From Chthoniobacterales bacterium (GTDB lineage: Bacteria > Verrucomicrobiota > Verrucomicrobiia > Chthoniobacterales > UBA10450), in assembly GCA_003244145.1 (NCBI GenBank), contig QHBM01000068.1, positions 1 to 32,898 of the forward strand: a stretch of 32,898 bases of DNA, in the 5' to 3' direction. The notes below the pieces were generated by a model that ran no database searches, was not told the origin of the DNA, and was given only the letters and a program-made list of their open reading frames with translations. Below, piece by piece: positions 1,730 to 11,745 of the stretch. Within the stretch, counting starts at the first letter, position 1; the number at the start of each line of letters is the position of its first letter. The position numbers and the translations under genes were made by a program.

Positions 1730-3139
1730 ATGATGCGCACGAGAGTTATCTGTTTGGTGGTTCCGCTCCTTCTTCTGGCGAATGGTCGAGTGTTTGGAAA
1801 CGGTGGCGCGTGGCAGACCGGGGTCCCGGTCACCGGCAACGGCGCGGCCTCGGACCAGAAGCGTTCGACCAACGTCACGATCGAAGACGAAAAACTCGTG
1901 ATCGATCTGCACCAGGAATTCGCGGCGGTGGAAGTGCGTTACCGGATGCGTAACACCGGCGCGCAGGTCGAGCAGGATTTCTTTTTCCCGGTCGAACGCT
2001 GGGCTGACAACGAGGACACGGAAAACACGGCAACCGATTTGGTCGACTACGGAATCACAGCGGACGGAACAGAACTGAAATGGGACAATGTGGACGCGAA
2101 AGGGGAGGGACCGAAAGCCGTGGTTGATCCGAAGTGGGGAGATTTCAAACCAGCGAAACGGCTCTGGAAGAAATCGCAAATTCCTTTCACGCCCGGGCAG
2201 ACGCGCGAGATTTTAATTCGTTATCGCTCTCCCTATGCCGCGAACGAAAGTTCCGTTTCCGATGACGGGAATGCCACCGATGCCTACTTCCGCTATTCGC
2301 TCTCGCCGGCAGCGACCTGGAAGGGGCCGATCGGCAAAGGCAAGATCACGGTGAATTTCCTCCATCCGCGACCGGAGGAGATCACCATCTCAAAACCAAA
2401 AGATCGTTTCAAAAAAATCACCGCCACGCAATTCGTGTGGGAGTTCCAAAATCTGAAACCGACCCTGGCTGACGATATGAAGATCATCGTTCACCCGGCC
2501 TACGCGCTTTATCCGGCCAGCCGAGAGTATCGGGCTGATTACGAGCATCCTGGTTTTCGGGCGGAATACATCTTCATCGGCAATCGATATTTTCTTCAGC
2601 ACTCGGATTACGAAGCGGTCGCGAGTTCGACGCGAAAGCCCGAACCAGCGCCCAGCCCCGCTCAGACGCCGTCCAAACCCGACGATAGCAGCATGCGCTT
2701 AAAGTCTGAAAGCGAACAGACCTTCGATGTCGCTAACATCAAAGGCTTGGAATCGGGAACGACCTGGGCGGAAGGAGTGGAGGGCGACGGCATCGGCGAG
2801 AACATCGCGCTGACGGTGCATCATCCGCTTCCGCTCGACGCGATCATGATCATGCCGGGATATCGCAGCGACGACGCGACGTTTTGGACGAAGAACAATC
2901 GCGTGGCGGAATTGGAGGTGACGCTGAACGGCGAACACACTTTTGTGGCCTCGATTCCGGACGAAAAGTTCGGGACGCCTTATCCGATCCCGGTGCGTGG
3001 CTATGCCAAACCGGTGAGCGCGGTGAAGCTCGTGATCAAAGCGGTGCATCGCGGAACGGCCGCGCAGGACACTTGCATTTCGCTCGTGGAATTGAGGGCC
3101 AGGCTTTCGCAGAAGCCGAAATTCCAACCGGCCCGGTGA
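1730..3139 (+). CDS. Exported protein with C-terminal NADase-type glycan-binding domain
   Basis: The 469-residue protein starts at ATG 1730 (ATGATG; 1733 is equally possible). The frame is open further upstream, but this start gives a clean signal peptide: Met-Arg basic start, hydrophobic core ICLVVPLLLLA, then a VFG-type cleavage site near residue 24. Residues about 40-260 form an unrecognised beta-rich ectodomain starting with a conserved-looking 'VRYRMRNTG...FFFPVE' stretch that faintly recalls DUF4424-type extracellular domains. After a Pro/Ser-rich linker (about 300-330), residues 332-460 match the NADase-type glycan-binding (discoidin-like) fold: 'IMPGY', 'NNRVAELEV', 'VSAVKLVIKAV' and 'DTCISLVEL' occur in family order. 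The stop codon overlaps the GTG start of the next gene (GTGA), so the two are probably translationally coupled. Likely role: binding of cell-surface or environmental glycans (inference). Confidence 0.75.
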   Translation: MMRTRVICLVVPLLLLANGRVFGNGGAWQTGVPVTGNGAASDQKRSTNVTIEDEKLVIDLHQEFAAVEVRYRMRNTGAQVEQDFFFPVERWADNEDTENTATDLVDYGITADGTELKWDNVDAKGEGPKAVVDPKWGDFKPAKRLWKKSQIPFTPGQTREILIRYRSPYAANESSVSDDGNATDAYFRYSLSPAATWKGPIGKGKITVNFLHPRPEEITISKPKDRFKKITATQFVWEFQNLKPTLADDMKIIVHPAYALYPASREYRADYEHPGFRAEYIFIGNRYFLQHSDYEAVASSTRKPEPAPSPAQTPSKPDDSSMRLKSESEQTFDVANIKGLESGTTWAEGVEGDGIGENIALTVHHPLPLDAIMIMPGYRSDDATFWTKNNRVAELEVTLNGEHTFVASIPDEKFGTPYPIPVRGYAKPVSAVKLVIKAVHRGTAAQDTCISLVELRARLSQKPKFQPAR

Positions 3140-5820
3140 GATTTCGCTGGATCGCGCTAGTTCTGCTCGCGGCCCTCGGGTCCCGCGCCGAGGCGTCATC
3201 GATCACGCTACCGATCTACATCGAAGACAATCACGCCGGCTCCTTTTACTGGCTCGCGCAACATCTTGAGCTCGAGGAAGAGTGCGCGCTGATTCATTTC
3301 GATGCGCACAGCGATGCCTCCGCGCTCTTCGATTCGGATGTTCTGCGCGAAAGACTGCGGCGGGTCGATTCGGTGGAAGATCGCCGGCAGCTCCTGGAAC
3401 GCTGGCGAAAATCGGGCGTGGTCCAATGCTTCAATTGGATCGAGCCGCTCATGCCGTCGCCGATCAAGAATGTGATCTGGGTGCCGCGCGGAAAGTTAAG
3501 CAAACAGAGCGCGCGCACGCTCCGGCGGGAGGCGGCCGAATATCTCGATGGCCAGCTCGAAGCGTCTCCGCGCGCCGCCGGCTCTTTGCAGCACCGATAC
3601 CGCGCCGTCGCATTCGACGATCTTCTCGCGCAGTTCAAGGAAGAGGGTCCGGTCGTCGTGACGATCGACCTCGATTATTTCGCGGACTTGACGATGCGCG
3701 AACGTGCGGCGGAGTTCGAGCGCGTTTGGAAATTCGTTTCGCAATGCCGGAATCTTCGCGCGGTCACATTCGCGATCTCGCGTCCCTATCTCACAGGGGA
3801 CGAGCAGGCGGATTCACTTCTTCGGCTGGCGCTACGCGCGTCCTTATCGCTGCCGACGGCCCTGATCGAATTCGAACCGTTTCAAAATGTCGGGAACGAC
3901 CGGTCGCTCCGGGCGAAGGAAATCCGGGCCCAGAAACGCGAGGTGCCGGCATTCAATCTCACGAACGCCTCCGAAGAATTGCGCGCTCTCTTGCTCGCGA
4001 ATCGCGATCGCATCGCGGTGGAGACCGATCCGGCGATGTGGCAAAAACTTTTGGCCGATTGGGAAAAGGAGGCGCCGCGAGTTCGGCTCGCGGTTAAGGA
4101 TCACGAGCCCTCGACCGACAATATCTGGCGGCTCCCGGTTTCAGAACCGGCGGAACTCGAACTCGAGACCGAGCCATGGGATTCCGCGGCGACATCGGTG
4201 GAATGGATCGCGCTCACGCCGGAGTATTCGCGCTGCCATCTCACCGCGGAACGCGCGGACACGATTGGGTTCGGCTACGGGGCGCCGCCGCGTCCGCGCT
4301 GGCGCGAAACCAGGCTGCGCGATCGCGGTGGCGCTCTGCCGATCGATTCGCTCCGGAAATTTTTCGATGCGAAGACCGGGTGCGGTGCGTTGCGATTGAA
4401 AGCGCGCGTCGAGATCAATCATCATATTCGCGAGACGCCGGCGATCGAGCTTCGGCGGTTCGCCGGTTCCGGTTTTCGAGCCGCGATCACGGAACAGTTT
4501 GGTTTGCCCTATCTTTTTGGCAGCGGCGAATTGCGCGACGGCACGAACACCGGGCCGGAGACCGGCTGGGGCGCGGACTGCGCCAACTTTCTCGTTTACG
4601 CGTTGCGCCGGCAAGGCCGGCAGATTCCCTGGTCCAATCCGAAGCAACTCAAGAAATACCTTTCGCCGGTATCGGAAAATATTGGCGCCGGCCAGGCCGC
4701 GCTCAGCGAGGCGGATATTGCCAGCGGGTTATTCGTCCATTTCGGAAGTCACGTCGCGGCCGTGATGGAAGACAGGCCGCCGCTCGGCACGCTGGATGAA
4801 GGCGACCTGGTGGCGCACCAGCTTGAAGGCGTGCCGGAAATCCTCTCGTTAGGCGAACTGCTGAAAGCGCGCAAAACGGCGCGGTTCGATTTGCTGCGGG
4901 TGCCGCCTGATCAGCACACGCCGGATTTGGCGGTCGGCGGTGACGTCATGCTCGGTCGCACCGTCGGCGAACAGATCAAGAACGGCGCCGATCCGTTAGG
5001 CGGAGTCCGTTCGGATCTCGAAAGCGCACCGTGGAGAGTTGTGAACTTGGAATGCGTCGTTTCCGAGAAAGGAACGGCGGCCCCCGGAAAGTCTTATTCG
5101 ATGCGAGCGCCGGATGAAGCGATTCGCATTTTGGCTTCGGCCGGAATCAACGCGGTGGGCCTGGCGAATAATCACGCGGTCGATTTCGGAAACGAAGCGC
5201 TCATCGATGCGATCGCGCGCCTGCGGTCTCACGGGATTGCGACGGCAGGCGCCGCAGAAACGCCGGAGCTTGCCTACCGGCCGCTTTTTTTCACGGGACG
5301 CGACGGACAAAAAGCGGCGCTCATCGCTTTAACCGATGTGGAAAATGATCCCAGCGGCGCCGGAGTCGCGTCGGCGTCGGATCAAGAGCGGGTCGCGAGC
5401 GCTATCGCCGAAGCTCGCGCCCACGCCACGTTTGTGGTGTGCCTTCTGCATTGGGGGGAAGAGAACAATTCGCGTGTGACGGAACGCCAGCGAGAGCTGG
5501 CGCGCTGGCTGATCGATCAACAGGTGAATTTGGTGGTCGGTTGCCATTCTCATTGCCTGCAGCCGCTCGATTTTTACCACGGTCGCCCGATCGTTTATTC
5601 GCTCGGCAACCTGGTTTTCGACGGCGCTCCGACTTTGGCCAGTTGGAACAAAGGCGAACTGCTGACCGTCGATTTCGGCCGTGGCGCTCTTCGCGCCCCT
5701 TCCCTTCGGCTGATTCCTTTCCGGCTCGATACGCGCGGTTTCCCGCAGACCGCCTCGGACCCCGCCAACGCCGATTCCGAGCGAGCGAGTGGAGCGAACG
5801 AAACCTACTTCTTCCGGTGA
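3136..5820 (+). CDS. Exported three-domain protein: UPF0489 + NlpC/P60-like + CapA-type metallophosphatase
   Basis: The 894-residue protein starts at GTG 3136, chosen because it overlaps the previous stop by 4 bp and opens a signal peptide (WIALVLLAALGSRAEA). The frame stays open upstream without such a peptide. Residues 28-330 resemble UPF0489, an arginase-like fold: E30-D31..H33, DAHSD at 56-60 and DLDYF at 178-182 look like paired metal ligands. Residues about 465-560 look like an NlpC/P60 papain-like hydrolase, with Cys482 in 'GADCANF' and His539 in 'GSHVAAV'. Residues 596-860 are a CapA (PGA_cap) calcineurin-like domain: GDVMLGR 602-608, NLEC 637-640, NNHAVDFG around 678-685, HWGEE from 772 and HSH 804-806. 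CapA proteins take part in poly-gamma-glutamate synthesis or release. Substrate here is unknown; export and a peptide or polyglutamate target are inferences. I know of no standard family with this exact order. Confidence 0.8.
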   Translation: MRFRWIALVLLAALGSRAEASSITLPIYIEDNHAGSFYWLAQHLELEEECALIHFDAHSDASALFDSDVLRERLRRVDSVEDRRQLLERWRKSGVVQCFNWIEPLMPSPIKNVIWVPRGKLSKQSARTLRREAAEYLDGQLEASPRAAGSLQHRYRAVAFDDLLAQFKEEGPVVVTIDLDYFADLTMRERAAEFERVWKFVSQCRNLRAVTFAISRPYLTGDEQADSLLRLALRASLSLPTALIEFEPFQNVGNDRSLRAKEIRAQKREVPAFNLTNASEELRALLLANRDRIAVETDPAMWQKLLADWEKEAPRVRLAVKDHEPSTDNIWRLPVSEPAELELETEPWDSAATSVEWIALTPEYSRCHLTAERADTIGFGYGAPPRPRWRETRLRDRGGALPIDSLRKFFDAKTGCGALRLKARVEINHHIRETPAIELRRFAGSGFRAAITEQFGLPYLFGSGELRDGTNTGPETGWGADCANFLVYALRRQGRQIPWSNPKQLKKYLSPVSENIGAGQAALSEADIASGLFVHFGSHVAAVMEDRPPLGTLDEGDLVAHQLEGVPEILSLGELLKARKTARFDLLRVPPDQHTPDLAVGGDVMLGRTVGEQIKNGADPLGGVRSDLESAPWRVVNLECVVSEKGTAAPGKSYSMRAPDEAIRILASAGINAVGLANNHAVDFGNEALIDAIARLRSHGIATAGAAETPELAYRPLFFTGRDGQKAALIALTDVENDPSGAGVASASDQERVASAIAEARAHATFVVCLLHWGEENNSRVTERQRELARWLIDQQVNLVVGCHSHCLQPLDFYHGRPIVYSLGNLVFDGAPTLASWNKGELLTVDFGRGALRAPSLRLIPFRLDTRGFPQTASDPANADSERASGANETYFFR

Positions 5821-6410
5821 CCCACCATCTCGGCTTCCTTTGTGCGCGCATCGACGCGCGTGAGGTCTTTTTCCAAGCCGCGTTTCAATAAAGGCCGATG
5901 CGGGATGTCGCAGAGATATTCGGCAATGAACCAGATGTCTTTTTCCGACGTAGTCCATTGCCGATGATCGAAGCGCGCCAGATTCACCGGTCCTGAATAT
6001 CGCCGCAGCGTCCGTTCGCCGCGCAGATTGAAGTAGATATTGAAATAGCTCAACGCGAGTTCGCGGAGCGTGCGATAAACTGGCTCGCGATAGCGGCAGC
6101 CGGCGAAATTAGATTTCGCGATGGCGCCCCAGTGTCCGCGCGATTTAAAAATCGCAAGGACATGGTCTGTATCCTGGTCCGCTTCGAGGTCGAACAGGAG
6201 CGGCGGGAAACCGATGACACGCAAAGCCGCGGCGGCGAAGGTCGCACCTTCGAGACAATGCGCGGTTTGCTCGCGCAGCACTTTTCTCGGCGACCACGCG
6301 GTGCCCGCCAAATGGTAAGGCATGTCGTCGAGATAACGCTGAATGCCGGCCGGAGTTTTAAGCGCGCGCAACGAGCGCAGTTCCGACGGGGTGAATCCAA
6401 ATGATTTCAA
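5805..6410 (-). CDS. Transglutaminase-like small protein
   Basis: The 201-residue protein starts at TTG 6410-6408. An in-frame TAA lies immediately upstream (6413-6411) and the next Met is at residue 30, so TTG or an internal start must be used. Cys52 ('AHCLEGA'), His83 ('DTDHVLAIF') and a polar residue near 99-101 ('KSN') have the order and spacing of a transglutaminase/papain-like Cys-His-Asp/Asn triad. No signal peptide is visible. Related short transglutaminase-like proteins are often annotated as hypothetical. Its 3' end overlaps the 3' end of the convergent CapA-fusion gene by 16 bp, so transcripts of the two must overlap. Substrate unknown. The catalytic assignment rests on motif spacing only. 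Confidence 0.7.
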   Translation of the reverse strand: MKSFGFTPSELRSLRALKTPAGIQRYLDDMPYHLAGTAWSPRKVLREQTAHCLEGATFAAAALRVIGFPPLLFDLEADQDTDHVLAIFKSRGHWGAIAKSNFAGCRYREPVYRTLRELALSYFNIYFNLRGERTLRRYSGPVNLARFDHRQWTTSEKDIWFIAEYLCDIPHRPLLKRGLEKDLTRVDARTKEAEMVGHRKK

Positions 6411-6533
6411 TTAGTGCAATCACCATGTCGCGCCCCCTATCGGTCAAGTCAGTTATTTTGAATGGCGAGGGGTTGAATCAAAGCAGGCCGCGACTTGAAT
6501 TTCCGAAATGGAACCGCGAAGATGGCGCTCTAC

Positions 6534-6625
6534 GGAAGGGTGGCTGAGTCCGGTTGAAGGCACTCGACTCGAAATCGAGCGTGGGGTTAAACTCACCGTG
6601 GGTTCGAATCCCACCCCTTCCGCCA
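6534..6625 (+). tRNA. tRNA-Ser (anticodon CGA)
   Basis: A full class II cloverleaf is present. The acceptor stem GGAAGGG (6534-6540) pairs with CCCTTCC (6615-6621), and the discriminator is G6622. The CCA end is encoded at 6623-6625. The anticodon stem CTCGA/TCGAG encloses loop CTCGAAA, with anticodon CGA at 6570-6572 (reads UCG). A long variable arm follows, as expected for serine. The T arm is GTGGG-TTCGAAT-CCCAC (6598-6614). The last 18 bases are repeated nearly exactly 115 bp downstream. Confidence 0.96.
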
Positions 6626-6630
6626 CATCA

Positions 6631-6715
6631 AGCGCTTCCAAAAGTCACCACCGACTCGCATTTCTTGCGAGTGGAAAGTCCGGAATGAGAGCGCAGTTCG
6701 ACTTTGGAACGCGCT
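6631..6715. repeat. Palindromic unit just after tRNA-Ser
   Basis: Bases 6631-6646 pair with 6700-6715 (about 15 bp, with one bulged base on each side: A6640 and C6710). Inside lies a perfect 7-bp hairpin (ACTCGCA 6654-6660 / TGCGAGT 6666-6672, 5-nt loop). The whole 85-nt block can fold into a long structure. No T-run follows it, so a simple terminator is not the obvious reading. It is bracketed by the tRNA 3' end and its near-copy. Confidence 0.6.
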
Positions 6716-6721
6716 GCGCGT

Positions 6722-6739
6722 AATCCCACCCGTTCCGCC
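6722..6739 (+). repeat. Near-copy of the tRNA-Ser 3' end (possible att-site relic)
   Basis: Bases 6722-6739 match the tRNA 3' end at 6607-6624 in 17 of 18 positions (C6617 is G6732 here). A duplicated tRNA 3' end is the usual scar of site-specific integration. Only about 97 bp lie between the copies and no integrase is nearby, so an element, if there ever was one, is gone or very small. Confidence 0.6.
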
Positions 6740-6827
6740 CGCCCGGAAACTCCACGGGCTGGGGCTAAGTAGCTGAGCGAGAACGAAAAAAAATGTCACA
6801 AATTTATTCTTGCCGGCGGGAGGATAA

Positions 6828-6875
6828 ACACTTCATCTTGTGTTCCGCCTGCTGCGAGTCCACTGCATCTTGTTG
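6828..6875 (+). promoter_or_regulatory. Tandem NrdR boxes upstream of nrdJ
   Basis: Box 1 (6828-6843) reads ACACTTCATCTTGTGT and matches the NrdR-box pattern ACACWATATATWGTGT at 13 of 16 positions. Box 2 (6860-6875) reads CCACTGCATCTTGTTG, matches at 10 of 16, and shares 12 of 13 core bases with box 1. They start 32 bp apart, the about three-helical-turn spacing typical of paired NrdR boxes. NrdR is the ATP/dATP-sensing repressor of ribonucleotide reductase genes. The sites lie 92-140 bp before the nrdJ ATG. The nrdR gene itself is not in the window. Confidence 0.75.
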
Positions 6876-6890
6876 GTAGCTGTTTGCTGG

Positions 6891-6945
6891 CTATTCACAA
6901 GTTATGCCCTGACGCGCCTCATAGGTAAACCGTCACTTATTCACA
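6891..6945 (+). promoter_or_regulatory. Two DnaA-box-like 9-mers in the nrdJ leader
   Basis: TTATTCACA at 6937-6945 is a perfect match to the DnaA consensus TTATNCACA. CTATTCACA at 6891-6899 differs by one base. Both are on the plus strand, 46 bp apart, between the NrdR boxes and the nrdJ start. DnaA is known to control nrdAB in E. coli, which makes a regulatory role thinkable. Two short sites can also arise by chance. Confidence 0.35.
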
Positions 6946-6967
6946 GAAACCCTTCGCCCGACCCGCC

Positions 6968-9900
6968 ATGATCCAACTCAAACACGGTATTCACCCTTCC
7001 TCACTGAATCACCCACGAAAGACATCTCTCGCCCCAAAAAACCGCGCAAATAAGAATCGTGCGAGTAAGAAAAAAACGAAGGGGTTGCGCTTCGAGCGCG
7101 TCTTCAGCGACGCGAAAGTCGCGCCGTTTGACCAGATCGATTGGGAACGGCGCACGGCTGAGATCACGGAGGACGGCGGCAAGGTGATTTTCAAGCAGGA
7201 AAACATCGAAGTGCCGAAGAGCTGGAGCGCCTTGGCGACGAAGATCGCGGTCTCGAAATATTTCTATGGCGACATCGCGAACGGGACCGATCCGCACAAG
7301 GGCGGGCGCGAAACCTCGGTGCGGCAACTGGTTCATCGCGTGACTCGAACGATCGCTGATTGGGGCATGGCCGACGGATATTTCGCGAACGCGGACGCAG
7401 CAGAAGTTTTTTACGACGAGCTGACCTGGCTTTGCGTGAACCAGCACGGCGCTTTTAACTCGCCGGTCTGGTTCAACGTCGGTTTGCATCACCAATACGG
7501 AGTGGGCCGGGACGCCGGGCTCGGGAATTATTTTTATAATCGCGAGACCGGCCAGGCCGAACGGGCGTCGACCCAGTACGAGTACCCGCAAGGCAGCGCC
7601 TGTTTCATTCAGAGCGTGGGCGACACCATGGAAGACATCATGCGTCTCGCGACCAGCGAAGCCATGCTCTTCAAATACGGGAGCGGGACCGGGAGCGATC
7701 TGTCCTCGCTCCGCAGCACCCGGGAAAAATTGAGCGGCGGCGGGAAACCGAGCGGGCCGCTTTCATTCCTGAAAGTTTACGACCAGGTCGCGAACGTGGT
7801 GAAAAGCGGCGGCAAAACCCGGCGGGCCGCGAAGATGAACACGCTGAAGGATTGGCATCCCGACATCGAGGAATTCATCGATGCGAAGCAGAAGGAAGAA
7901 AAGAAAGCGTGGGCCCTGATCGAACAGGGATACGACGGAAGCTACAACGGCGACGCTTACGGCTCGGTCATGTATCAGAACGAAAACCTGAGCGTGCGGG
8001 TGAGCGACGAGTTCATGGATGCGGCCGTGGAAGATCGCGAGTGGTGGACCCGCAGTGTGCGCGACGGGAAACCGTGCGAACGGAAAGAGGCGAGGACGTT
8101 GTTGCGCAAAATCGCGGAAGGCACCTACGTCTGCGGCGATCCCGGGATGCAGTTCGATTCCACCATCCACAAGTGGCATACCTGCAAGGGAACCGACCGG
8201 CAGCATTCCACCAATCCCTGCTCGGAATATCTTTTCCTCGATAACACAGCGTGCAATCTCGCCTCGCTGAACTTGATGAAGTTCAAGAGCGAAGATGGCG
8301 TGTTCGACGTGGAGCGGTTCAAGGCGGCGGCCCGGGTTTTCATCACGGCGCAGGAAATCCTGGTCGATAACGCGAGCTACCCGATCAAGGAAATCGCGGA
8401 GAACTCCCACATCTTTCGCACGCTCGGGCTCGGTTACGCCAATCTGGGATCGCTCATCATGAGCTACGGTTACGGTTACGATAGCGTGGAAGGCCGGGCC
8501 ATTTGCGGCGCGATCACTTCCATCATGACCGGGGAAGCCTACGAACAAAGCGCGCGGATCGCGCAAGCGATGGGACCTTTCCCGGGTTATCGGGACGCGC
8601 GTTGCAGCGGAGTGGCGAAGCCGGTGGCAAAAACTAACGTCGCTTCCATGCAGGAAGTGATCGAGCTGCATCGTTCCGCGGTGAGCGAGATCGCGGCGAA
8701 CGAAGAATTTGCCTACCTGAAAGAAGAAGCGGCGAAAGTGTGGGAGAGCGCGTCGGAGCTGGGCAAACGCCACGGTTATCGCAACGCCCAGGTCACCGTC
8801 CTCGCTCCGACGGGGACGATCAGCTTCCTGATGGATTGCGACACGACCGGGATCGAGCCCGACATCGCATTGGTGAAATACAAACTGCTCGCCGGTGGCG
8901 GCATGTTGAAAATCGTGAACCAGACGGTGACTCCGGCCTTGGAAAAACTGGGTTACAATTCCGAAGAGATCGAGCGCATCATCGCGCACATCGACGCCTT
9001 CGACACGATCGAGGACGTGGCCGACGCCGATGGCTCCGCCATTACCTCCGGGTTGAAACCGGAGCACATCGCGATTTTCGATTGCGCGTTCAAAGCCTAC
9101 AAAGGCGAGCGCAGCCTCGGCTATATGGCGCATTTGCGAATGATGGCCGCGGCCCAGCCTTTTCTTAGCGGCGCCATTTCGAAAACCGTCAACATGCCGG
9201 AAACGGCGACGGTGGACGAAATCATGAACACCTACATCGAGGGATGGCGCCTCGGATTGAAGGCAATCGCGATTTACCGCGACAGCTCGAAGCGTTCCGC
9301 GCCGTTGAACACGCGGAGGACGAAGGACATGGGCGGGACGGATCACGAGACGCCGGTCGCTTCACTCGACCGCGGCGAATTGGAAGATCGGATCGTCGAG
9401 CTCGACCAGGAAGTCGCATCGCTCCGCCTCCGGCTCGATCAACCGTCACGGCATCGCATGCCGGATACGCGCATGTCGTTGACCCACCGGTTCGAGATCG
9501 CGGGCCATGAAGGCTACATCACGGTCGGTCTGTATGAAGATCGTCAGCCCGGGGAACTCTTCATCACGATGTCGAAGGAAGGGAGCACGATTGGCGGGTT
9601 AATGGACACGGTCGGCACGCTCACCTCGATCGCGCTGCAATACGGCGTGCCGCTCCAGGGATTGGTGAAGAAATTCGCCTATCAACGTTTCGAGCCGAGC
9701 GGATTCACGAAGAACCCCGACATCCGGAACGCGACCAGCATCACCGATTACGTCTTTCGCTGGCTCGGTTGCCAGTTCATCCCCGGTTACAAGGAGGCGA
9801 CCTCACCCAATCGCGGCCAGAGCGAGCTCCCGATGAAGGAAATTCCGGAGATGGAAAAAAAGGCGCTCAACCGCCCCGTCTCCGATCTGCCGCGCACGGC

Positions 9901-10117
9901 GGAGAAGGAATTGATCGACGTGATCACGAGCCACGCGCCGAACGAAGGCGAGCCGCACGTCGCCGGCAACGGGCACACCTACGCGGACCGCGTGCAGGAA
10001 GTGCTCGGCAACATGTTCATGGACATCATCTGCTCGCATTGCGGGAGCAACAAAGTCGTACGCGCCGGCGCCTGCGGAGTCTGCACCGAGTGCGGCACGA
10101 GCCAGGGGTGCAGTTAG
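6968..10117 (+). CDS. nrdJ: Adenosylcobalamin-dependent (class II) ribonucleoside-diphosphate reductase
   Basis: The 1049-residue enzyme makes deoxyribonucleotides for DNA synthesis using adenosylcobalamin as radical source, so it needs no oxygen and no NrdB partner. A basic Lys/Arg-rich N-terminal tail (1-40) precedes the reductase core. Key residues visible: redox pair Cys212 ('GSACFI') and Cys429 ('NTACNL'); radical Cys418 with Asn416 and Glu420 in 'NPCSE'; the 'APTGTISF' phosphate-site motif; and a Cys-rich C-terminal tail (CSHCGS, CGVCTECG, GC) that probably binds zinc and re-reduces the active site. The length fits the long vitamin B12-dependent type. Paired NrdR-box-like sites lie upstream, and no cobalamin riboswitch was found in the 342-bp leader. 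The next gene follows after only 5 bp, which suggests co-transcription. Confidence 0.95.
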   Translation: MIQLKHGIHPSSLNHPRKTSLAPKNRANKNRASKKKTKGLRFERVFSDAKVAPFDQIDWERRTAEITEDGGKVIFKQENIEVPKSWSALATKIAVSKYFYGDIANGTDPHKGGRETSVRQLVHRVTRTIADWGMADGYFANADAAEVFYDELTWLCVNQHGAFNSPVWFNVGLHHQYGVGRDAGLGNYFYNRETGQAERASTQYEYPQGSACFIQSVGDTMEDIMRLATSEAMLFKYGSGTGSDLSSLRSTREKLSGGGKPSGPLSFLKVYDQVANVVKSGGKTRRAAKMNTLKDWHPDIEEFIDAKQKEEKKAWALIEQGYDGSYNGDAYGSVMYQNENLSVRVSDEFMDAAVEDREWWTRSVRDGKPCERKEARTLLRKIAEGTYVCGDPGMQFDSTIHKWHTCKGTDRQHSTNPCSEYLFLDNTACNLASLNLMKFKSEDGVFDVERFKAAARVFITAQEILVDNASYPIKEIAENSHIFRTLGLGYANLGSLIMSYGYGYDSVEGRAICGAITSIMTGEAYEQSARIAQAMGPFPGYRDARCSGVAKPVAKTNVASMQEVIELHRSAVSEIAANEEFAYLKEEAAKVWESASELGKRHGYRNAQVTVLAPTGTISFLMDCDTTGIEPDIALVKYKLLAGGGMLKIVNQTVTPALEKLGYNSEEIERIIAHIDAFDTIEDVADADGSAITSGLKPEHIAIFDCAFKAYKGERSLGYMAHLRMMAAAQPFLSGAISKTVNMPETATVDEIMNTYIEGWRLGLKAIAIYRDSSKRSAPLNTRRTKDMGGTDHETPVASLDRGELEDRIVELDQEVASLRLRLDQPSRHRMPDTRMSLTHRFEIAGHEGYITVGLYEDRQPGELFITMSKEGSTIGGLMDTVGTLTSIALQYGVPLQGLVKKFAYQRFEPSGFTKNPDIRNATSITDYVFRWLGCQFIPGYKEATSPNRGQSELPMKEIPEMEKKALNRPVSDLPRTAEKELIDVITSHAPNEGEPHVAGNGHTYADRVQEVLGNMFMDIICSHCGSNKVVRAGACGVCTECGTSQGCS

Positions 10118-10122
10118 AAATT

Positions 10123-11745
10123 ATGGCCTTCGACCCGTTTAATCCGTTTTTCCAAGGATGTCCTTTCTCAGACCTAATCGATCATGCTGGCGGTTTATCT
10201 CTTGCGGCCCGCGACCAGTCGCCCTTCGCGCTCTCGTCCTGCGAACCGATTGCATTAGGCATTCGCTCTAACATTGGGCTGGCGTCACTGACCAACCCGT
10301 CGCCCTCGCCGGCATTGAAACTGACGACCGTTTCAGCCACTGAACCGCTCCCCTTGAGCACCGATTCCCATATCGGGCTTACATCATTAACCAACCCGTC
10401 CCTCTGGCCGGTATTGAAACTCTCGGCACTTTCGCCCACTGAACCGATCGCGTTGAGCACCGACCCTCACGTCGGGCTCACATCGTTAATCAATTCGTCG
10501 ACTCCGCCGGCATTGAAATTGACCGCACTGTCATCCACAGAACCGATCGCATTCGGCACCGATTCTGTCGGGCTTTCTTTAACTAATCCGTCGAACTCGT
10601 TGCTCTCGAAACTGACGACGCTCTCGTCCCCGGAATCGATCGCGTTAGACACCTATTGTCACATCGGGCCTACGTCCCTGACCAACCCGTCGACTTCGTC
10701 GGCCTTGAAACTGACTGCGCTTTCAGCGACGCAATCCATCTCAATCGGCGCGAGCACCCACAATCTTTCGCCTTCGAGTGGTCTTCAGAGTTCTTCATTG
10801 CGTTTCGATTCTTTGGCGAACACAGGCCCCCAGTCCGCTACCGGGATTTACGAGACCGCTCTCCGGGAATTCCCGCGACCATTCGATGTCTTCAACCCAT
10901 TTTTGCAAACCGCGCCGAATCGATTGGAGGCCGCTCCGTGGTTGACAGCTCCAATCGCAGCAGCCCGACCTTACACAGGAAAAGGGTTGGCAGATCTTCT
11001 CGAGGCTTCGCGCCTCACACAACTGACGAACAATTTAGTGTCGCCAAGCCTGGTATCTGGGCCGCCGACTGCTTCCCCTCTGTTTCAGAGACTGCTCAAT
11101 GATTTTGAATCTACGAGCGCGAGCTACGCTGATCTCTTGCGAGCAGCCGAAGTTAGCGACTTTAATCCGGCGCTATTTGCCATCCCTGCTCGTGGATATT
11201 TTGCGAGTGGCGATACGCTTGTGCAAGTTGATCAGGCCTGCTCTGTGCCGACTCCGCTTCAACGCACGCGGGAGTCTGCGCGCGAGGAAGCTTCACGTCG
11301 GCGAGAAAGCAAATTGGAAGCATTATTATCGACGGTTAATGCTGACTTGTGCACTTTGTGGTCTGGCGCGCACTTGGCCGCCGCATCGGACAATCCGGAG
11401 AGAATCCGCTATGCCTGCGTTTCCGTTCGCGAGCTGATGACGCAAGTAATGCACGCATTGGCACCCACTGCGAAAGTTCTCAAATGGACCTCTGATCCAA
11501 ATCAATTGCACAACGGCAATCCGACTCGACGAGCCAGATTGCTTTACATTTGCCAATCTGTAACCGCCGGGCCGCTTTCGGAATATATGAATTTAAAGAT
11601 CAAGTCAGTCGCCGCGCTCGCAGATGTTGTTCAGAAGGGCACGCACGAAATTGGTTTTCAATTATCACCACTTGAGCTGCAGCTGATGTTCAACGGCGCC
11701 GAGGAAGCTCTTTGCAGCCTGCTCGAGATAGGAGTTTCCGAGTAA
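10123..11745 (+). CDS. Repeat protein with predicted pPIWI-associating nuclease-like C-terminal domain
   Basis: The 540-residue protein starts at ATG 10123, 5 bp after the nrdJ stop. The frame is open upstream, but only as a shadow of nrdJ. Residues 40-202 are five tandem copies of a 33-residue Ser/Leu/Thr-rich unit (core TEPIALSTD..GLTSLTNPS..ALKLTALS). A FDPFNPFFQ-like motif occurs at the N-terminus and again at 254 (FDVFNPFLQ). Residues about 396-540 are a compact helical domain with 'NPERIRYACVSVRELM', 'LAPTAKV', 'GNPTRRARLLYI' and 'KGTHEIGF', an order I associate with the predicted pPIWI-associating nuclease family seen in anti-invader contexts. No PIWI/Argonaute gene is nearby. GC content looks lower than in the flanking genes, hinting at acquisition. 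There is no signal peptide. Function unproven; a defence or toxin-like role is inference. Confidence 0.6.
   Translation: MAFDPFNPFFQGCPFSDLIDHAGGLSLAARDQSPFALSSCEPIALGIRSNIGLASLTNPSPSPALKLTTVSATEPLPLSTDSHIGLTSLTNPSLWPVLKLSALSPTEPIALSTDPHVGLTSLINSSTPPALKLTALSSTEPIAFGTDSVGLSLTNPSNSLLSKLTTLSSPESIALDTYCHIGPTSLTNPSTSSALKLTALSATQSISIGASTHNLSPSSGLQSSSLRFDSLANTGPQSATGIYETALREFPRPFDVFNPFLQTAPNRLEAAPWLTAPIAAARPYTGKGLADLLEASRLTQLTNNLVSPSLVSGPPTASPLFQRLLNDFESTSASYADLLRAAEVSDFNPALFAIPARGYFASGDTLVQVDQACSVPTPLQRTRESAREEASRRRESKLEALLSTVNADLCTLWSGAHLAAASDNPERIRYACVSVRELMTQVMHALAPTAKVLKWTSDPNQLHNGNPTRRARLLYICQSVTAGPLSEYMNLKIKSVAALADVVQKGTHEIGFQLSPLELQLMFNGAEEALCSLLEIGVSE
10240..10728 (+). repeat. Five tandem 99-bp coding repeats (one of 93 bp)
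   Basis: Unit starts at 10240, 10339, 10438, 10537 and 10630, with a degenerate sixth start at 10729. Spacings are 99, 99, 99, 93 and 99 bp, all multiples of three, so the frame is kept. Each unit begins with a GAACCGAT-like sequence and carries GGGCT...ACATC and AACCCGTC-like blocks. Units differ at many bases, so the array is not freshly amplified. Confidence 0.85.

Follow-up and report, generated by a model that had tools for sequence, protein, structure and literature searches.

The window analyzed here is a 32,898-nucleotide contig (QHBM01000068.1, positions 1 to 32,898, forward strand) from the draft genome of a Chthoniobacterales bacterium (GCA_003244145.1; 3.63 Mb in 173 contigs). Two genes overlap on its forward strand. 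The upstream gene (1730..3139), which we call the partner, encodes a probably exported protein of 469 amino acids from the chosen start, with a DUF4424-like part and a C-terminal NADase_transloc (F5/8 type C) domain. The downstream gene (3136..5820), which we call the fusion, begins with GTG and encodes an open reading frame (ORF) of 894 amino acids that has full-length relatives in other genomes. The four bases GTGA at 3136..3139, read directly from the sequence, contain both the stop codon of the partner and the start codon of the fusion.

A conserved three-domain fusion

From its N terminus, the fusion protein consists of a probable signal peptide (residues 1-21; 3136..3198), with a hydropathy maximum of 2.89 at residue 6; a ureohydrolase or peptide-arginase-like domain (residues 24-325; 3205..4110) with predicted metal ligands H33, D56, H58, D60, D178 and D180; a beta-sandwich spacer (residues ~326-443; 4111..4464), seen as strands in the full-length model and without a Pfam match; an NlpC/P60-like domain (residues 446-597; 4471..4926) with C482, H539 and H561; and a CapA, or PGA_cap, domain (residues 598-866; 4927..5733) with D603, E639, N679, H680, D683, H772 and H806. 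The full-length structural model (predicted local distance difference test score, pLDDT, 78.2; predicted template-modeling score, pTM, 0.76) follows this order: strands alternate with helices at 25-320, successive strands fill 330-442, the elements at 446-590 are arranged in an NlpC-like way, and the CapA region comes last. Foldseek matched this model best to MslH (E 3.4e-17), and Mre11 ranked fifth (E 6.9e-4).

We assembled 23 distinct loci: 15 came from a pattern-based scan that took a single genome for each species, and the others from the window, the genomes G005 and G039 and, within family f15, five further genomes. Thirteen full-length fusions, the window's included, were placed in a first alignment (A1), and addition of the five f15 proteins gave a second alignment of 18. 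Omitted from both were L006/L044 (in-frame TGA near residue 607), L019 (frame shift), L020 (match ending at residue 785) and L028 and L029 (cut by a contig end), all of which still entered the counts of gene order and of partner tails. Identity to the window protein falls to 28% among the aligned proteins, and the six arginase-type metal ligands, C482, H539 and H561, and D603, N637, E639, N679, H680, D683, H772 and H806 are identical in all 18. An earlier note, made from the window's letters alone, had claimed a three-domain fusion in one 894-residue chain, with an arginase-like metal site, a papain-like Cys482/His539 pair and a signal peptide. The fusion is confirmed as real and conserved, both sites are invariant, and an N-terminal hydrophobic stretch compatible with a signal peptide, as judged by hydropathy only, is present in every aligned protein. 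These results indicate that three catalytic-looking domains, with their residues kept, lie in one chain that is probably exported. The beta-sandwich spacer and the upstream partner gene had both been overlooked in that note.

In a taxonomic survey of the kind that the earlier note suggested, 8 of 387 genomes of the phylum carried the N-terminal region (about residues 19-445), seven of them within uninterrupted frames of 842-1027 amino acids; the frame of the eighth carrier, G039, is 659 amino acids long and its CapA part is interrupted by a stop. No free-standing N-terminal region was seen in the 387 genomes. All 15 loci from the one-genome-per-species scan, which, being pattern-based, finds close relatives only, come from Verrucomicrobiota by title. 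Titles of relatives read Spartobacteria, Verrucomicrobia, Chthoniobacterales, Verrucomicrobiaceae, Verrucomicrobium and Brevifollis, the last of which we take to belong to Verrucomicrobiota. Spread by viruses or plasmids was rejected: 91 pattern stretches in viral contigs yielded no confirmed relative of the arginase domain, plasmids yielded no match to it, and full-protein matches on plasmids (best 10 of 104) and phages (best 5 of 28) covered the CapA part only. Like the earlier note, we found no description of this architecture, or of the gene pair, in the literature searched, which, with subscription papers largely outside the search, is weak evidence of novelty.

Relatives of the catalytic-looking domains

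Of the three Pfam families to which the earlier note pointed, PGA_cap was recognized well above its cut-off (207 bits versus 27), whereas UPF0489 (16 versus 27 bits, as a single sequence) and NLPC_P60 (17 versus 23 bits) remained below theirs. Further matches below cut-off were to Arginase and to the unrelated Radical_SAM. The NCBIfam peptide arginase model NF052474 matched the whole protein at E 1.3e-4 and the domain alone at E 1.2e-5 (24.9 bits against a cut-off of 350), and 10 of the 18 family members matched it at E <= 0.1. Evidence at the level of the family is stronger. In a comparison of the arginase-domain profile with the PDB, the sole match at E <= 1 was the peptide arginase OspR (8brp; whole-sequence E 0.055), aligned over two stretches that are not significant singly and in which the His, DxHSD and DxDYF metal motifs are in register. 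The arginase region alone gave a confident model (pLDDT 86.2, pTM 0.87), whose first eight Foldseek matches were all ureohydrolase chains, with a best E of 1.4e-3, probabilities of 0.91-0.99 and TM-scores of only 0.27-0.35. No match reached E 0.001, and OspR was absent among the best 50 matches listed.

According to the accessible parts of PMC10028609 and PMC12703449, the peptide arginases OspR, FlmR and OhkR convert peptide Arg to ornithine at a two-manganese site built from the corresponding six ligands, and the latter source gives the motifs DXHXD and LDIDLDYFSC; a third motif of the family is EEH(N/H)EAF. With these enzymes (UPF0489, PF12640) the fusion shares a ureohydrolase-type fold, the six ligands and the elements DxHxD and DLD. 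All 18 fusions keep both DAHxD and DLD. After DLD, 15 rows read YF or FF, whereas L040 has AF, L041 TF and L038 YY, and neither LDI nor SC at the ends of the second motif is conserved. The third motif is reduced to its His and Phe, the fusions reading [ESA]-[DEQ]-[NS]-H-[AT]-[GE]-x-F. Unlike the known peptide arginases, the fusion is probably exported, is joined to two further enzyme domains and scores far under the curated cut-offs, and genes for ribosomally synthesized and post-translationally modified peptides (RiPPs) were not recognized at its locus. The scores of the arginase and NlpC-like domains are modest; their assignment draws jointly on the fold, the register of the motifs and the invariant residues.

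NLPC_P60 was matched at E <= 0.1 by 7 of the 18 members (best 2.6e-5), and RipB/RipA-type chains led the PDB matches of the NlpC-like profile, the first being RipB-type 3pbi at E 0.032. As in the NlpC/P60 cysteine peptidases RipA and RipB, the Cys (C482) stands at the start of a helix in the full-length model, a His lies beside a strand, a further His is conserved and there is a D-C motif; H561 is a putative third residue, placed by position, not by superposition. Unlike RipA and RipB, the window's domain falls below the Pfam cut-off and is placed between a beta-sandwich and CapA.

The PGA_cap match spans residues 598-829 (E 4.6e-61; profile positions 2-254 of 255), and all 13 members of A1 match this family. 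Both by sequence and by fold, the best PDB match of the domain is MslH (8gq9), a lasso-peptide epimerase that, in the accessible text of PMC10406935, inverts the Trp at a peptide's C terminus and makes contact with the terminal carboxyl of a substrate analogue. Of the eight MslH residues whose roles are given there, seven have counterparts, with D603, E639, N679, H680, D683, H772 and H806 aligned to Asp11, Glu44, Asn87, His88, Asp91, His259 and His295. The eighth, the calcium ligand His261, corresponds to Gly774 in all 18 fusions. A CapA protein of an Aquabacterium plasmid reads HWG at the same position and likewise lacks a His261 equivalent, so that the site of the fusion looks like that of a generic CapA protein, not a variant of MslH. 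The fusion also differs from MslH in being probably exported and in scoring far below the cut-off of the MslH equivalog NF038314 (75 versus 700; E 3.6e-21). In Bacillus subtilis, loss of pgsA, a CapA-family gene, shifts the D/L ratio of polyglutamate from 75/25 to 5/95, for which the accessible part of PMC6029982 suggests an interaction with a racemase or a conformational effect. From the MslH and pgsA data taken together, we infer that CapA-fold proteins may epimerize chain ends.

The strong PGA_cap match is also what favors the role suggested in the earlier note, that the fusion makes, trims or releases a gamma-glutamyl polymer. CapC/PgsC (PF14102) was, however, absent from all 12 carrier genomes examined, unlike in CapA/PgsA synthetase systems, and the control search was positive in B. 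subtilis; gamma-polyglutamate synthesis of the PgsBCA/CapBCA type is therefore not supported. In the crude gene calls described below, each family other than the partner accompanies the fusion in at most 4 of 22 loci, and MslH shows that the CapA fold also serves peptides. We consider a role in a gamma-glutamyl polymer highly improbable. A link to peptidoglycan, the other option named in the earlier note, is possible.

The partner gene and its C-terminal arginine

The partner matches NADase_transloc (E 3.4e-19) and DUF4424 (E 7.1e-7) and has an N-terminal hydrophobic segment. In each of the 23 loci it directly precedes the fusion, and 18 of them have an NTGA overlap at the junction. Some match to the partner was found in 24 of the 387 genomes of the phylum, and full-length matches (E < 1e-100) were found in exactly the eight fusion carriers; the other 16 genomes hold partial matches only (best E 1.0e-22). 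Within the window's genus, fusion and full-length partner co-occur in the same five of eight genomes. Both genes are missing from G001 and G007, in which the flanking genes are present, and in G006 the syntenic site (L097, about 8209-8474) retains a stub of the partner, split over two frames and covering about residues 1-89, with the fusion gone, which looks like a natural joint loss of the two genes.

We compared ORFs of at least 100 amino acids, from crude longest-frame gene calls, in the neighborhoods of the 22 loci other than the window. Two large families emerged, the partner and the fusion, and every other family was confined to at most four loci. Two f15 genomes encode related proteins of about 700 amino acids beside the pair (L038, 1942-4062; L041, 2577-4637) that by eye look like TonB-dependent receptors. 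In the window, a convergent gene (5805-6410, reverse strand) overlaps the end of the fusion by 16 bases; it is present in all eight genomes of the genus and has no Pfam match at E <= 0.01. A terminator-like hairpin, found by consensus scan only, lies directly 3' of the fusion (5838..5865, forward strand), the scan having returned 8 such hairpins in the region against 5.8 (standard deviation 2.4) expected.

These surroundings bear on whether the fusion might mature a small, secreted, RiPP-like peptide whose gene lies at another site in the genome, a role that would suit a protein in which the nearest characterized relatives of two domains are RiPP maturases. The window leaves little space for a precursor, with 108 bases before the partner and the 16-base convergent overlap after the fusion, and no third family among the ORFs compared is conserved with the pair across lineages. 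A separate RiPP precursor at the locus was rejected on these grounds, and we judge maturation of such a peptide to be improbable.

The partner ends in QKPKFQPAR (3110..3136, forward strand), with the motif P-x5-Arg directly before the stop. The same ending is present in 26 of 27 readable partner copies from the 23 loci (the partner of L020 is broken into frames, and its tail was counted from the last of them). In a partner alignment of 17 rows with a mean column identity of 42%, the terminal Arg and the Pro six residues before it are both invariant. Codons for the Arg are cga in eight copies, cgg in six, aga and cgt in four each, and agg and cgc in two each, with aaa (Lys) in the single exception; because all six Arg codons are used, selection appears to act on the residue. 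We ruled out the terminal Arg as a by-product of the NTGA overlap, since it is kept where NTGA cannot fix the codon: in tandem first copies (L023, L026, L039 and L044), in copies that stop with TAG and in codons that end in a pyrimidine (cgt or cgc, in L038, L039, L040, L041 and L042). In L044 of genome G039 (5054-10368, reverse strand), a fusion broken by TGA in its CapA part lies beside two partner copies, the nearer of which has no Arg ending; the broken fusion and the lost Arg are possibly linked decay.

As background, a C-terminal Arg occurs in 15 of 93 neighboring ORFs of at least 250 amino acids, and two neighboring ORFs of at least 100 amino acids end in P-x5-R. The tail was found in none of 14 unlinked partner homologues that share the C-terminal domain, a second copy in the carrier G283 among them; L066, L068, L069 and L074, unlinked homologues that match the N-terminal part only, were left out of this count. 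A search of the genus genomes with one strict DNA pattern for the tail, which misses the window's own tail with its Phe, hit the partner gene only, once each in four of five genomes, and a reversed-pattern control gave one match; other proteins may share the tail. In twelve g35 genomes of family f15 (L054-L065) there is an unlinked protein of the NADase_transloc type that is well conserved and has no P-x5-R tail.

The pairing and the conservation of the tail would fit equally well if the tail were a docking signal on the arginase-like domain and the enzyme acted elsewhere, for example on peptidoglycan stem peptides. NlpC/P60 proteins commonly cut peptidoglycan peptides. Docking would also agree with the accessible part of PMC3848476, where DUF4424 proteins, mostly with signal peptides, are proposed to work in multi-component enzyme complexes. 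It leaves unexplained, however, why the paired domain should have an Arg-acting fold with all its metal ligands kept. Moreover, in L023, L026 and L039 a single fusion is accompanied by two partner copies that both carry the tail (L044 also has two copies, but only one with the tail), an arrangement that suits substrates better than a fixed complex. We regard docking as possible but doubtful.

Alternatively, the fusion could be a scavenging hydrolase that gains nutrients by digesting, in the periplasm, peptides that contain Arg or come from peptidoglycan, while the partner binds cell-wall or glycan material. All three folds of the fusion include hydrolases, and the NADase_transloc domain of the partner belongs to the F5/8 type C fold, which is often used in glycan binding. 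Such a role is quite unlikely in our view, as it accounts neither for the near-invariant tail nor for the one-to-one pairing.

Elsewhere in the window, an ORF at 10165-11742 (forward strand) is predicted to carry, close to its C terminus, a pPIWI-associating nuclease domain (PF18165, E 1.3e-20); its N-terminal part includes about 2.8 imperfect repeats of 99 bases (10291-10565).

A proposed modification of the partner's tail

An activity that turns Arg into ornithine and one that acts on a C-terminal residue would together need a C-terminal Arg, and the partner has one. On this basis we propose, as the explanation that we favor, that the two genes may well constitute an export module whose enzyme, the fusion, acts in the periplasm or at the surface and modifies the C-terminal tail of the partner. 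The earlier frame, in which a polymer is made, trimmed or released, overlooked this dedicated Arg-tailed protein, which is a better candidate substrate. According to the proposal, both proteins would be exported via the signal peptides suggested by hydropathy, and the arginase-like domain would hydrolyze the partner's C-terminal Arg to ornithine and urea. The CapA domain might invert, or otherwise act on, the same terminal residue, a more tentative step that draws on its closest solved relative, which epimerizes the last residue of a peptide. More speculatively, the NlpC/P60-like cysteine domain could cleave or transfer an amide, possibly so as to link the newly formed amine of ornithine to peptidoglycan or a different acceptor.

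Several observations weigh against tail modification. OspR Glu11 aligns with Asn or Ser at position 32 of the fusion, and the missing equivalent of MslH His261 makes an epimerase role uncertain. In the accessible literature, peptide arginases act on core-peptide arginines in small RiPP precursors, and the term "signal peptide" is absent from the accessible text of one peptide-arginase paper checked. Partner copy 2 of L044, which adjoins its fusion, ends KKPKVSRK, with Lys, and copy 1 ends GAR. The lineages are not independent, five of the 23 loci belonging to one genus, and all 14 unlinked controls come from a single genus (g35), four of them also ending in Arg. Finally, the last residue is Arg in 11 of the 18 fusions as well. 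Ending in Arg is thus not special in itself, and the weight of the proposal rests on the fixed P-x5-R ending and its spread.

Tail modification could take a more specific form, in which export, conversion of Arg to ornithine and inversion are followed by covalent attachment of the partner, through the new amine or the carboxylate, to the cell wall or a different acceptor. We consider this form unlikely; if true, it would be a previously undescribed kind of processing and a sorting route unrelated to sortases, exosortases and L,D-transpeptidases. The partner copy of L044 that already ends in Lys would need no arginase step. In Braun lipoprotein, the amine of a C-terminal Lys is joined to peptidoglycan (accessible text of PMC8263019). 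As a comparison only, Braun lipoprotein and the L,D-transpeptidases thus offer an exported protein attached through the amine of its last residue, which the Lys-ended tail of L044 resembles; unlike there, the enzyme families here are others, and attachment of the partner is a guess.

In the accessible literature, the sole role of peptide arginases is to mature small natural-product peptides, and the probably exported, fused relative described here suggests that a related activity may modify protein C termini after export in Verrucomicrobiota. The pair would turn poorly understood families, DUF4424/NADase_transloc proteins and CapA fusions, into a directly testable enzyme and substrate. If CapA/PgsA proteins are indeed chain-end epimerases, as we infer, this would account for the L-rich polyglutamate that forms in the absence of pgsA.

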